Shown here piece after piece: positions 31,627 to 36,812 of a stretch of DNA of 64,000 bases (its first letter is position 1; each line of letters opens with the position of its first letter). This stretch comes from Candidatus Naiadarchaeum limnaeum. Its GTDB lineage: Archaea > Undinarchaeota > Undinarchaeia > Undinarchaeales > Naiadarchaeaceae. Location: contig DVAB01000023.1 of assembly GCA_014189685.1 (NCBI GenBank), forward strand, positions 33,398 through 97,397, written 5' to 3'. A program made the position numbers and the translations under genes. Below the pieces are notes generated by a model that did not search any database, had not been told where the DNA came from, and saw only the letters and a program-made list of their open reading frames with translations.

Positions 31627-31711
31627 GGATTTACTTAATTTTTTCAGATATTTATATTCGATGGCAGCTTAAATAAACATATTAAAACAAACACACATTG
31701 ATTTCAATCCT

Positions 31712-31785
31712 GCCCCTGTGGTCTAACCTGGATATGATGGAAGCTTGCGGAGCTTTTGATCTGAGTTCAAATCTCAGCAGGGGCA
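31712..31785 (+). tRNA. tRNA-Arg (GCG)
   Basis: Acceptor GCCCCTG/CAGGGGC and T stem CTGAG/CTCAG pair fully. The anticodon loop TTGCGGA sits on stem GAAGC/GCTTT (one G-T pair), giving anticodon GCG. There is no intron and CCA is not encoded. It ends 2 nt before the stop of the convergent membrane gene. Confidence 0.9.
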
Positions 31786-31787
31786 TC

Positions 31788-32342
31788 CTATCCAAATACG
31801 CTTATCACAGTTGCGGCAAAAGAAGTTAGCAGGAAATAGTTAACACTTAAATTTAGAAAAGAAAGCATTATATGTTTTATTAAGGGCTCCGGTGAGAAAA
31901 AAGCCTTAACAATATTTCCACCGATATATTTACCAACTATTATTCCAATCATCCCAAACAGGACAAAATTTTCCACAGGGATAAAAGCTCCAAAAATTCC
32001 CAGTGCTGTTAGATAAACCGAATCGTAAATTGTAAGCATTGGCAACGGATAACTTCCGCCAAGAATTTTGCTCATTCTCCAAATCAAGATCGTTGATAAA
32101 ATTCCTACCAGCGCACCGGCCTGCCAACCAAACATGTGCCCTCCAACCAATGTTAAAAAAGAGTGAAACCCAAGAAGCATATTTCTAGAGAACGGTGTTG
32201 AGCGGCTAAAAGTAACCAATAAAATTATTGCAGAAACGCTAAGGGCGCTTTTTATTCCAAATAGCACTGGAATAACAAAGATAGCTATTAATCCTATTAA
32301 CTCAATCGCACTGCTTATTTTTATGAACGATTTTTCTTTCAT
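31788..32342 (-). CDS. Multi-pass membrane protein, paralogue of the gene at 36119
   Basis: This 184-residue protein has about five to six hydrophobic helices. It shares positions with the 180-residue product at 36119: FSR near one helix start, then FHS, a Gly-His/His-Gly pair, a P-L-D-(S/T)VYL stretch and an IP-N loop. No family is recognised. The ATG at 32342 is used rather than an upstream TTG. Both copies sit on the minus strand between tRNA-Arg genes, so the cluster may have grown by duplication. Confidence 0.65.
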   Translation of the reverse strand: MKEKSFIKISSAIELIGLIAIFVIPVLFGIKSALSVSAIILLVTFSRSTPFSRNMLLGFHSFLTLVGGHMFGWQAGALVGILSTILIWRMSKILGGSYPLPMLTIYDSVYLTALGIFGAFIPVENFVLFGMIGIIVGKYIGGNIVKAFFSPEPLIKHIMLSFLNLSVNYFLLTSFAATVISVFG

Positions 32343-32407
32343 TCTTCCAAGGGGCAAAGCTATTCCAAAGAAATCGTATTTAATTGTTTCTATTGATGTT
32401 AAATGAG

Positions 32408-32481
32408 CGCTGCCGACGAGATTCGAACTCGCATGAGCAGACTTAGGAGGTCTGTGCCTGTCCAGGTTAGGCTACGGCAGC
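32408..32481 (-). tRNA. tRNA-Arg (CCT)
   Basis: Acceptor GCTGCCG/CGGCAGC, anticodon stem CAGAC/GTCTG with loop CTCCTAA (anticodon CCT), and T stem GCGAG/CTCGT all pair. There is no intron; the discriminator is G; CCA is not encoded. Confidence 0.93.
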
Positions 32482-32514
32482 AAAATTATTCTCGTCAAAG
32501 AAGCACTTAAACTT

Positions 32515-32544
32515 TTACATTCTCACTGGAATCTCAATACCTAG
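32515..32544 (-). pseudogene. Duplicated 3' end of argS (left copy)
   Basis: On the minus strand this reads LGIEIPVRM-stop, nearly the C-terminus of ArgRS (LGIEIPERM-stop). Nineteen bases (32526-32544) are identical to the true argS end at 34139-34157, in the same orientation. No other argS sequence lies beside it. It marks the far end of a 1.6-kb two-gene insertion. Confidence 0.7.
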
Positions 32545-32593
32545 GCTACAGGAGCACGATATATATATCACTTTAGCTATAAATTAATTAAAA

Positions 32594-33559
32594 ATGGGTG
32601 CTGACTTTAGCGATGCAATAATTCAACAAGCTACATCTATTTCTGAGACTTTGGCTAAAGCCAGAAATGCTGTCCCTCAACTAAAAGACGTTAATTCTTT
32701 ACTTAGGCAGATAATAAAATTATCGAAAGAGACAAGTGCTTTTGGGAAAAAAGCAAAGCAAATGACGATGAAACATACTTTTGACTTTTATAAAGATATT
32801 GTAGTTTATACTCCTGATGCAATTTTTAGGTTAATTAAAGACAAAGACGGGCGGTATGAGAAGAGCGAACTTTTGAGAGAGCTATCTTTTTTTGAAAGGC
32901 GTGCGGTTCAAAAATATAGCTCAGAATTTTTAAGAATAACAGAAGCGCTTTCTAAGATTCAAATGCTCGGAGATAAATGGGAAGGACGGAAATTAATCCC
33001 AGGAGAACTTAGGAATGTGCTTTATTCAATGATTTTATCTGCAAAGAGGGCTTACAAAGAAACAAAACCCACGCATGAAAGCAAAAAAGCCTTTGACGAC
33101 TCTATTATTACTTTCTTGGATAAACTTACGGCTGAACTTAAAAGTGGGTTAGATAGTTTGGAGATGCAAATAACAAGTGGCACTTTGAGACTAGATAAAA
33201 AGTCTGCCGGAGCAGTAAGCGAATTAAATAAATTACTTTCATGGCGTCTTAAGCTTGAAAGGAATAGGAGATGGGATGATATATTAGGGGCATTTTATTT
33301 TCGTATTGGGTCGTATATTATTTGGGCGTTATTGCTTTTTATAATCTTTCTTGTAATATCAGTGATTGGCTTTTTCATGTACACTTTACAGGGAGTTAAT
33401 GTAGTTGTTCCTCTTGGGACCTATGCTTTATTTGGTGCTATAGTAAGTCAAGTACTTTCTTTCGTAAAGCTTATTTATGGTTTTGCTTCTGAGTGGTCTA
33501 AGACAAGAAAAGGTAAAAGAATGTCGGCTATCCAATCAAAATACTTCGGCAATGGCTAG
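32594..33559 (+). CDS. Unknown two-helix membrane protein, first gene of the insertion module
   Basis: I do not recognise a family. The first 230 residues are charged and helical. Two membrane helices follow (about 236-258, IIWALLLFIIFLVISVIGFF, and 266-290), then a short basic tail. TATATATATC lies about 35 nt upstream of the ATG. The next gene overlaps its last 8 nt. The pair lies between a duplicated argS end and argS itself, so it looks inserted. Confidence 0.6.
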   Translation: MGADFSDAIIQQATSISETLAKARNAVPQLKDVNSLLRQIIKLSKETSAFGKKAKQMTMKHTFDFYKDIVVYTPDAIFRLIKDKDGRYEKSELLRELSFFERRAVQKYSSEFLRITEALSKIQMLGDKWEGRKLIPGELRNVLYSMILSAKRAYKETKPTHESKKAFDDSIITFLDKLTAELKSGLDSLEMQITSGTLRLDKKSAGAVSELNKLLSWRLKLERNRRWDDILGAFYFRIGSYIIWALLLFIIFLVISVIGFFMYTLQGVNVVVPLGTYALFGAIVSQVLSFVKLIYGFASEWSKTRKGKRMSAIQSKYFGNG

Positions 33560-34124
33560 AAAAAAGGAAGCTTTAGCACAAGCCAAGGCAATTAAAGAAG
33601 CTTATTTTGCACAAAAGGTTGGAAAGCTTCCAATTTATGAGTTTAATGGTTATATGCTCACCATTATTTTCGCGGGTTTAGATGATATAGACTATATCAA
33701 AAAAGAATTAGCAAAATTAGGGGTCGAAATCAAAGAAGAGAAGGAACAGAAATTAATAGGGCTTGTTGATTTTATCAATCGAATTTTAAGTATACTACAG
33801 CGCTATTCCGAGCGAAATAAACTTGATATCGGGAAAAGTTTTTGTGAAAAACTTTTGAAGACTGTATTGAACTACAATACTTTTGTTATGGCATATATTG
33901 ATTTCCTAGGAAAACAAGGTTTTCTCTCCAATATGAGTTTTCTTTTAGGTTTTAGTGGGATTTACTCTGCTCAAAGGAAAAATTTAAGTAAGCACATAAA
34001 GGAAGCCGGTATAAAAAGAAGACACATAATTGAAATAGGGCGAATAATTTTTGGAGATCGAAACAAAAACATAACTAAAATGTTTTCTCTTTTAGAAAAA
34101 ATCCATCCAAAACCTTTGCCGTAA
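33552..34124 (+). CDS. Unknown helical protein, second gene of the insertion module
   Basis: This 190-residue, strongly basic, helical protein starts at the ATG at 33552, overlapping the previous gene by 8 nt, which suggests coupled translation. No family, integrase motif or nuclease motif is seen. It ends 3 nt before the convergent argS stop. Together with its partner it may form a membrane-linked module. Confidence 0.6.
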   Translation: MARKKEALAQAKAIKEAYFAQKVGKLPIYEFNGYMLTIIFAGLDDIDYIKKELAKLGVEIKEEKEQKLIGLVDFINRILSILQRYSERNKLDIGKSFCEKLLKTVLNYNTFVMAYIDFLGKQGFLSNMSFLLGFSGIYSAQRKNLSKHIKEAGIKRRHIIEIGRIIFGDRNKNITKMFSLLEKIHPKPLP

Positions 34125-34127
34125 TAT

Positions 34128-35858
34128 CTACATCCTTTCTGGAATCTCAATACCTAGCAAATAAAGGCAGTTTTTCAAAACATTAAATGTTGCTTGAACT
34201 ACTGCAACTCTTGCATTTATCAAATCTTTATCAGGCGCGTTTAAAACAGGCAAATTATTATAGAACAGATTAAACTTTTCTGCCAATTTATGCGCATAGT
34301 TTGCAAGCGTATGAACTCTGTAATGCGTTGCCGTCTCTTGAATAATTAATGGAAACTTTGCTAAATGCTTAACCAGTTCGTGCTCCTCCTCCTGTTCAAG
34401 CAAATTAAATTTAACTTCGCTCAATTTTATTGATTCAGCTTTTTCCAAAATTCTTTTTGCGCGCACAGCAGCATATTGTATATAAGGCCCTGTTTCTCCC
34501 TCAAATTCTAAGGCCCTATCCCAATCAAAGAAAATTGTTTTTGTATTACTAATGTTAAGAATTGAAAATTTAATTGCGCCTATTGCAATCTGCATTGCAG
34601 TATTCTTCTGCCCCTCAAGGGGAAGCTCAGGATTTCTGCTTGTTACTTCTGCAAGCGCCTTTTGAAACATTTTTTCTTTTAGCTCTCTGTATGTAATTGT
34701 GAGTCCTTCTCTTGAGCTCATTTTTTCCCCTTGCAGAGTAATCAAGTCAAAAGTTAAGTTGAAAGATTTTTTTACTTGTTTAAATCCCATCAGTTCAAGA
34801 GTTTTGAAGAGCTGCTGGAAATAAAGCCTCTGCTCACTTCCTGTAACAATAATCGTGCGGTCAATTTTGTATTTCTTGAATTTTTCTTCTGCCAAAGCAA
34901 GATCTCGAGTTGAATAAAGAGTTGTTCCATCGCTCTTTAATAAAAGAAAAGTATCCAAATCATATTTTTTAAGCTCAACAACAACTGCTCCGGCACTTTT
35001 TTTTGCAATTTTTTTCTTTTGTAGTTCTTGGACAAGATCCTTTCCACGCTTATCCATTTGGCTCTCAAAAAAATAATAATTAAATTTGACTCCTAAATCT
35101 TTGTAAATCTCTTCATACTCATCCAAACTCCACTGTCTTGTCCTTTTCCATAAATCCATTAGCTCACTGTCCTTTCCCTCTTCCAATTTTTTCTGTAATT
35201 TTTCAACTTCTGCTTTGTGTTCTGGACTTTCTTCCAATTTTTTAGAGGCTTCTGCATAAATTCTCCCTAACCATTCTCCTCTATTTGAGTTTGGAGTATC
35301 TCCTCTGTGGAAAGTTTGATAAGCCCATAGACATTTTGCAACATGCGCTCCGATATCTCCCTGATAATTCGCGCGCAAAACCTCGTATCCATTATATTCA
35401 AGAATTCTGCTCAAACTTTCCCCCAAAAGCGTACCTCTCAAATGCCCAATGTGAAAAGCTTTGTGCGTATTTGCTTGGGAAAACTCAACCATTATCTTTT
35501 CTTTTCTCTTTTCAGCCCTGCTATAATCTTTTTCAAAAGTTTCTTTTATCACTTCTTTTGCAAAAGCTCCTCTATTAAGGAAAAAGTTTACATATGCACC
35601 AGCAAGACCAACCTTCTTTGCAATTGAAGGCTTTTTGGTATTTGCTAGGATTTTCTCAGCAATATCCCGCGGGGAAACTTTTTTTTGCCTTCCAAGCTGA
35701 AAAGAAATACTGCAGGCCAAATCCCCCATTTTTGCGCTTGGGGGCTCTTCAATAGAATTATCTAAATCGCCTGTTTTTACTTTTAACTTCAATTTTTTTA
35801 GAGTTCCCTCAAGAGAATTAAAAACATCTTCCCTTGCTTTCATCCAGGCGGTTTTCAT
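34128..35858 (-). CDS. argS: Arginyl-tRNA synthetase
   Basis: This class I synthetase charges tRNA-Arg. The N-terminal additional domain is followed by the HIGH-type motif HIGHLRGTLLGE near 150, with FSQANTHKAFHIGH before it. The KMSKS-type motif is KMSSREG near 395. The C-terminal anticodon-binding domain ends LGIEIPERM. The ATG at 35858 is preferred because a TATTATAAA-like box lies just upstream; an ATG at 35906 in frame would add 16 residues. The gene sits among four tRNA-Arg genes. Confidence 0.93.
   Translation of the reverse strand: MKTAWMKAREDVFNSLEGTLKKLKLKVKTGDLDNSIEEPPSAKMGDLACSISFQLGRQKKVSPRDIAEKILANTKKPSIAKKVGLAGAYVNFFLNRGAFAKEVIKETFEKDYSRAEKRKEKIMVEFSQANTHKAFHIGHLRGTLLGESLSRILEYNGYEVLRANYQGDIGAHVAKCLWAYQTFHRGDTPNSNRGEWLGRIYAEASKKLEESPEHKAEVEKLQKKLEEGKDSELMDLWKRTRQWSLDEYEEIYKDLGVKFNYYFFESQMDKRGKDLVQELQKKKIAKKSAGAVVVELKKYDLDTFLLLKSDGTTLYSTRDLALAEEKFKKYKIDRTIIVTGSEQRLYFQQLFKTLELMGFKQVKKSFNLTFDLITLQGEKMSSREGLTITYRELKEKMFQKALAEVTSRNPELPLEGQKNTAMQIAIGAIKFSILNISNTKTIFFDWDRALEFEGETGPYIQYAAVRAKRILEKAESIKLSEVKFNLLEQEEEHELVKHLAKFPLIIQETATHYRVHTLANYAHKLAEKFNLFYNNLPVLNAPDKDLINARVAVVQATFNVLKNCLYLLGIEIPERM
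34139..34157. repeat. Direct repeat: true argS end, copy of 32526-32544
   Basis: These 19 bases are identical and in the same orientation at both positions, 1613 bp apart. This copy lies in the last codons of argS. The pair brackets the two-gene module. Confidence 0.8.
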
Positions 35859-35971
35859 AATTCGTTTATAATGAGACTTTGCTTTTAAACTTTTACAAAA
35901 TTCCATTTAATTTGGATTTATCAATTCTCTTGTAATTTTTGCCTGCGCCTATGAAACTCAGATTAAATGAA

Positions 35972-36086
35972 TGGACCCGAGGGGATATTCAGCTCTGCTG
36001 AATACACCGAGCGTCAGCGAGAGCGTTTGAACCCCCATTAAGAGGTCCGAAGCCTCTTGTCCTAATCCAGGTTAGACCACGGGTCC
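35972..36086 (-). tRNA. tRNA-Arg (TCG) with 40-nt intron in the T-loop
   Basis: Acceptor GGACCCG/CGGGTCC, D stem GTC/GAC, and anticodon stem AGAGG/CCTCT with loop CTTCGGA give anticodon TCG. The T-loop reads TTCAAA then a 40-nt insert (35986-36025), then T and the closing CCCC. A full bulge-helix-bulge forms: T stem GGGG/CCCC, central helix TTCA/TGAA, bulges AAC and TAT, inner helix GCTCT/AGAGC. Cutting in the bulges yields TTCAAAT, a normal T-loop, with the intron between positions 59 and 60. Confidence 0.9.
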
Positions 36087-36118
36087 GTAATAATTAGGGA
36101 ATAAACGCACTTATCTAT

Positions 36119-36661
36119 TTACCGTAAAAAAGCCATTATCTGCGGCAGAAAATTTCTCAAAATAAGATAGTTAAATATGATATTTATTACGCTGAGGGGA
36201 AGCCTTCTTGTTATAGGGTCCATAAATACATAAACGCGCACAAATCCAACAAGCCCATTTCCGAATATTATAATTGTCCACAAACTGTATTCTAAAAGAT
36301 TTGCAGCCGGGATTAGAGCTGCGATGTAAGATAATATGACTAGATAAACAGTATCCAGCAAAATCCATGGCGGCTTTTGAAAACTTCCAAGGTATTTTCC
36401 TGTCATGTTTATGAGCGGTGCACTTGCAATTGCAACAAAAGCAGCTGGAATAGCCCCATGCAAATGCGCTATTACTATTATAAGCACGCTGTGGAATTCT
36501 ATTTTTAAATTATCATAGAGCGAATTCGCGCGGCTAAAGATTACTAAGAAAGTTGCGAGAATTGTTATAAAAGCAATTTTTGGGAAAAATAGCAGTGGGA
36601 CAAAAAGAATTACGAGTAACATAATCAGGTCAAATCTCAGCAAACTTCTTGCGGTGGTCAT
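36119..36661 (-). CDS. Multi-pass membrane protein, paralogue of the gene at 31788
   Basis: This 180-residue protein has about six hydrophobic helices and shares the FSR, FHS, AHLHG, DTVYL and IPAANL-like positions with the product at 31788. It has no known family. It lies between tRNA-Arg(TCG) and tRNA-Arg(TCT) on the same strand as both, so it may be co-transcribed with them. Identity is low but the spacing of the shared residues is the same, so common ancestry is likely. Confidence 0.65.
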   Translation of the reverse strand: MTTARSLLRFDLIMLLVILFVPLLFFPKIAFITILATFLVIFSRANSLYDNLKIEFHSVLIIVIAHLHGAIPAAFVAIASAPLINMTGKYLGSFQKPPWILLDTVYLVILSYIAALIPAANLLEYSLWTIIIFGNGLVGFVRVYVFMDPITRRLPLSVINIIFNYLILRNFLPQIMAFLR

Positions 36662-36738
36662 TTTTTTTGTAATTTAACATCGGTTTATAAATTCCCTTGC
36701 AGTTTGTCCCTGCACCCGCGATGCCGATGTTAAATTAG

Positions 36739-36812
36739 TGCCCCCAAGGGGATTTGAACCCCTACCAATAGCTTAGAAGGCTATCGCCCTATCCAGGTTA
36801 GGCTATGGGGGC
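36739..36812 (-). tRNA. tRNA-Arg (TCT)
   Basis: Acceptor GCCCCCA/TGGGGGC, anticodon stem ATAGC/GCTAT with loop CTTCTAA (anticodon TCT), and a GGGG/CCCC-type T stem pair. No intron is present and CCA is not encoded. Confidence 0.93.

Follow-up and report, generated by a model that had tools for sequence, protein, structure and literature searches.

Organization of the argS locus

The window, that is, the whole stretch of 64,000 nucleotides analyzed here, comes from a 984-kb archaeal genome that is 98% complete. The comparison set contained five relatives of the same order and none nearer. The argS gene (34128..35906, minus strand) is intact and encodes an arginyl-tRNA synthetase of 592 amino acids with matches above cut-off to Pfam PF00750, PF05746 and PF03485. 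Four tRNA-Arg genes lie around argS, at 31711-31788 (GCG), 32407-32481 (CCT), 35975-36087 (probably TCG) and 36738-36812 (TCT). tRNA-Arg(CCT) and tRNA-Arg(TCG) flank argS in the order relatives as well, which indicates that the cluster of the synthetase and its tRNA-Arg genes is conserved. Two related membrane-protein genes (31788-32357 and 36119-36661, minus strand) also flank argS, each adjoining a tRNA-Arg gene. Neither has a family match, and their homologues lie beside argS in the order relatives.

The 3' end of argS is present twice. The right copy (34127..34157, minus strand) is the working end of the gene and the left copy (32514..32544, minus strand), recognized by alignment and translation, is a displaced argS end. 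A repeat of 19 bases had been reported in the preliminary description, and positions 32526-32544 and 34139-34157 are indeed identical and in the same orientation. The similarity extends beyond this core, since 27 of 31 nucleotides agree between the two copies (26 of 29 in a shorter alignment), while 100 shuffles of the 4.1-kb neighbourhood reached a maximum of 21 of 31. A search of the entire genome with up to three mismatches returned the two copies and one unrelated site with three mismatches, but no further full copy. Translated from the minus strand, the left copy gives LGIEIPVRM followed by TAA, in agreement with the earlier reading of LGIEIPVRM and a stop, while argS itself ends in LGIEIPERM and TAG. 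All four mismatches fall within the last 12 of the 31 nucleotides (p = 0.016 under even decay).

In three of the order relatives (genomes G002, G003 and G005; loci L005, L004 and L003, respectively) argS ends in LGI..P.RM-TAG and tRNA-Arg(CCT) lies 15-43 nt downstream. The same tRNA gene, identified in the window by tRNA prediction (32407..32481, minus strand), is the ancestral downstream neighbour of argS. In the window it lies 33 nt past the left repeat copy, and a 1.6-kb module of two genes separates that copy from argS. Because argS and tRNA-Arg(CCT) are adjacent in the three relatives, the module is an insertion, and the left copy occupies the expected place of the original argS end. An insertion at the 3' end of argS with duplication of the target end had been proposed in the preliminary description. 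The empty sites in these relatives support, at the level of the order, the view that two genes were inserted between argS and its usual neighbour and that the gene end was duplicated. The stop is TAG in all three relatives and PERM is found in two of the three, as in the right copy. Thus, either the left copy may have decayed after its displacement or the right end may have come with the insert, and the endings fit both. ArgS is just 54-58% identical between the window and the order relatives, a distance too great for dating the event or for ordering its steps.

Gene content of the module

Exactly two open reading frames lie between the repeats, both on the plus strand, opposite to argS, and both orphans, as expected from the earlier statement that the segment holds two overlapping unknown genes alone. 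ORF1 (32594..33559, plus strand) encodes 321 amino acids with a helical N-terminal part and hydrophobic segments at about 230-297; from hydropathy, two membrane helices near the C-terminal end are likely. ORF2 (33552..34124, plus strand) encodes a basic protein of 190 amino acids that is predicted, with low confidence, to be all-helical and has no membrane segment. The two reading frames overlap by 8 nt, which suggests coupled translation, and they are probably passenger genes expressed as a single unit. By inspection of the sequence, TATATATAT (32560..32568, plus strand), about 30 nt before the start of ORF1, could be its TATA box. It can only be guessed that the pair has a membrane-associated accessory role, in which ORF1 would contribute the two membrane helices and ORF2 would be its soluble partner.

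Neither protein had a match above chance in Pfam, PHROGs, PADLOC, NCBIfam or PDB sequences. A PADLOC match of ORF1 to LeoBC (E = 0.011, 12.8 bits) was not taken as meaningful. No credible homologue of ORF1 or ORF2 was identified in 197 relatives or in viral contigs and plasmids, nor in further genomes (156 for ORF1 and 19 for ORF2), nor, for ORF1, in phages. ORF1 was also absent from GTDB contigs when sought with exact-peptide patterns, which reach close relatives only. These searches gave matches at the level of chance or very short and weak ones, and very remote homologues lie beyond their reach. The same two genes had been proposed as something to look for at other argS or tRNA sites, and no homologue of either was found anywhere searched. 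Single-sequence structure models of the two proteins had a mean pLDDT of about 46, too poor for a structure search. The two orphan genes may merit identification once relatives appear.

In GC content and dinucleotide use the module does not stand out from the rest of the window (28% of windows are as extreme), so a foreign origin is not indicated by composition. A scan for bacterial-type promoters and terminators gave results at chance level, and Rfam identified no further RNA in the module.

The left joint

Directly inside the left repeat copy lies a sequence, absent from the preliminary description, that resembles the first 15 nucleotides of a tRNA gene (GCTCCTGTAGCCTAG; 32541..32555, minus strand). 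On the minus strand it consists of GCTCCTGTAGC followed by CTAG and carries the marks of tRNA nucleotides 1-15, namely T8, A9, G10, A14 and G15. At 13 of 15 positions the fragment agrees with the tRNA-Glu and tRNA-Asn genes of its own genome and with tRNA-Arg(CCT) of G003 and G005, and at 12 of 15 with the tRNA-Arg(CCT) of its own genome. When the preceding T is included, agreement with tRNA-Arg(CCT) of G003 and G005 is 14 of 16. Scanning of the window at 127,970 positions on both strands yielded five perfect matches, all from true tRNAs, and three positions outside true tRNAs with scores of 13 or 14; the fragment scores 13. The chance of such a tRNA-5'-like score is therefore about 2 in 100,000 per position. 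The CTAG at 32541-32544 is common to the left repeat copy and the fragment, where it represents tRNA nucleotides 12-15, and the similarity to tRNA ends and the similarity to argS begins at this one CTAG. At the left joint, then, a tRNA 5' end and an argS 3' end are fused, with a 4-bp word in common. A truncated tRNA 5' end fused in this manner fits illegitimate recombination better than an integrase footprint, and the joint has the appearance of a mishap of recombination in which a tRNA fragment took part.

The order of the pieces at this joint is predicted exactly by a tandem duplication that preceded the insertion. A slip at CTAG between tRNA-Arg(CCT) and argS would have copied the argS end, the spacer and the tRNA 5' end, giving argS end, (module), tRNA 5' piece, argS end, spacer and tRNA, with the two genes entering the first spacer later in an event that left no mark. 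The two duplicated pieces are also similarly diverged (27 of 31 and 12 of 15). However, the sequence before the tRNA piece has no similarity to the present spacer (p = 0.92) and was rejected as a copy of it. This explanation also requires two events, the second being an insertion that is itself unexplained, and for these reasons it is considered unlikely.

Origin of the insertion

The absence of a visible integrase, noted from the module in the preliminary description, extends to the whole genome where tyrosine integrases are concerned. With E values up to 10, the 98% complete genome contained no tyrosine integrase match to PF00589, phrog_1 or PF16795; among 14 control genomes, PF00589 and phrog_1 were detected in all 14 and PF16795 in six. 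There is no second copy of the module in the genome. In addition, the last 40 nt of argS from 40 other archaea were sought in up to 12 kb of downstream sequence. The best scores were 8-14, compared with 7-13 for shuffles and 20 for the window, so there is no visible reuse of the argS end as a target.

These results bear on site-specific integration, in which the module would be a mini-element, or the remnant of a larger element, inserted by a tyrosine integrase that came from elsewhere or has since been lost, with the attachment site restoring the argS end. The argS end is in fact restored in frame with its stop, the repeat consists of a perfect block of 19 nt followed by a tail that preserves the end of the protein and holds all the mismatches, and the empty site is present at the level of the order. 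There is also precedent in the Thaumarchaeota, where 14 of 68 elements are integrated in the 3' ends of protein-coding genes with a median attachment site of 17 bp, and one element replaces the stop codon (PMC6563490). The insertion resembles those elements in its short direct repeat, its restored gene end and the empty site in relatives. It differs from them in having no tyrosine integrase or other element gene, in consisting of 1.6 kb with two orphans only, and in the tRNA 5' piece at one joint (PMC6563490). Integration of this kind leaves unexplained why a tRNA fragment exactly abuts the core of the repeat. With the genome lacking an integrase match, the module being single-copy and the argS end not being reused in the 40 archaea, it is judged somewhat unlikely. 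Thus, of the earlier reading as a mobile mini-element, the insertion stands, while an integrase footprint is not supported, given that no tyrosine integrase match, second copy, relative of either gene or reuse of the site was found in the genomes searched. The preliminary description of the insertion was correct and the insertion itself is real and of an ordinary kind; a mobile element could account for it but is not the preferred reading. A variant that would take in the tRNA fragment is an integrase-less mini-element of a DPANN-like archaeon, with its site at the 3' end of argS and a hybrid tRNA-5'/argS-3' sequence for attachment, and with the enzyme supplied by another replicon or by a partner host cell. 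This variant is regarded as quite doubtful.

Direct repeats on both sides of an insertion that lies at the 3' end of a gene could also result from a target-site duplication of about 30 nt, made by a transposon, a casposon or insertion at a staggered break, and casposons do use the 3' ends of genes (PMC6563490). However, the ends of the module carry no inverted repeats, and neither ORF is a transposase or Cas1. The clustering of the mismatches at one side makes simple decay of such a duplication less likely and is equally compatible with an integrase and with a donor end, and the tRNA fragment again has no explanation. Such an origin is very improbable.

The explanation favoured here is that the module entered at the junction of argS and tRNA-Arg(CCT) by recombination without a dedicated integrase and was closed at a CTAG microhomology. 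The incoming DNA would have comprised the end of an argS gene, the two-gene module and a tRNA gene, and its source would most simply be the same locus in a relative already containing the module. It would have paired by homology at argS, the presumed anchor, and the break at its other end would lie within the tRNA gene, just past nucleotide 15. At the CTAG common to both, the broken end would then have been sealed to the argS end of the recipient. That end, thereby displaced, would be the sequence now read as LGIEIPVRM and a stop ahead of the native tRNA-Arg. The insertion relative to the order, the displaced end beside the tRNA gene and the tRNA 5' fragment breaking off at CTAG are observed, whereas the identity of the donor, the pairing by homology and the sequence of the steps are inferred.

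Several observations argue for this explanation. First, a single event of this kind predicts not only the repeat and the displaced argS end but also the tRNA piece and the lack of an integrase. Secondly, the empty sites, the tRNA fragment and the coincidence of the two similarities at CTAG all favour it, as do the lack of an integrase, the lack of inverted ends and the lack of a repeat at the 40 other argS ends. Third, homology-facilitated illegitimate recombination is documented in bacteria, where joints of this type usually show 3-10 bp of microhomology (PMC3240628), and the illegitimate joint here has its CTAG. As in the bacterial process, homology would explain one end and a 4-bp microhomology the other, and the insert is of the order of 1 kb. 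Against the favoured explanation, no donor with the arrangement argS-module-tRNA was found, and the fragment is nearer to tRNA-Glu and tRNA-Asn (13 of 15) than to its own tRNA-Arg(CCT) (12 of 15). In addition, loss of recipient DNA is usual in the documented cases, whereas the present locus has gained a short duplication, and the process is documented in that work for bacteria and not for DPANN archaea (PMC3240628). For these reasons, recombination by homology and microhomology is put forward tentatively, with nearly an even chance of being correct.

The locus presents, in a reduced archaeal genome, a single insertion that can still be read, with both the displaced gene end and the joint preserved. 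A gene-end duplication, which is usually read as an integrase footprint, can bear the signs of a microhomology accident, and this bears on the calling of such footprints where an integrase is absent.

On the other side of argS, positions 35975-36087 (minus strand) resemble a tRNA-Arg(TCG) gene with an interruption of about 35-40 nt in the T-arm. The gene was missed by ARAGORN and scored 24.2 bits with Rfam, which is below threshold. The interruption is possibly a non-canonical tRNA intron.
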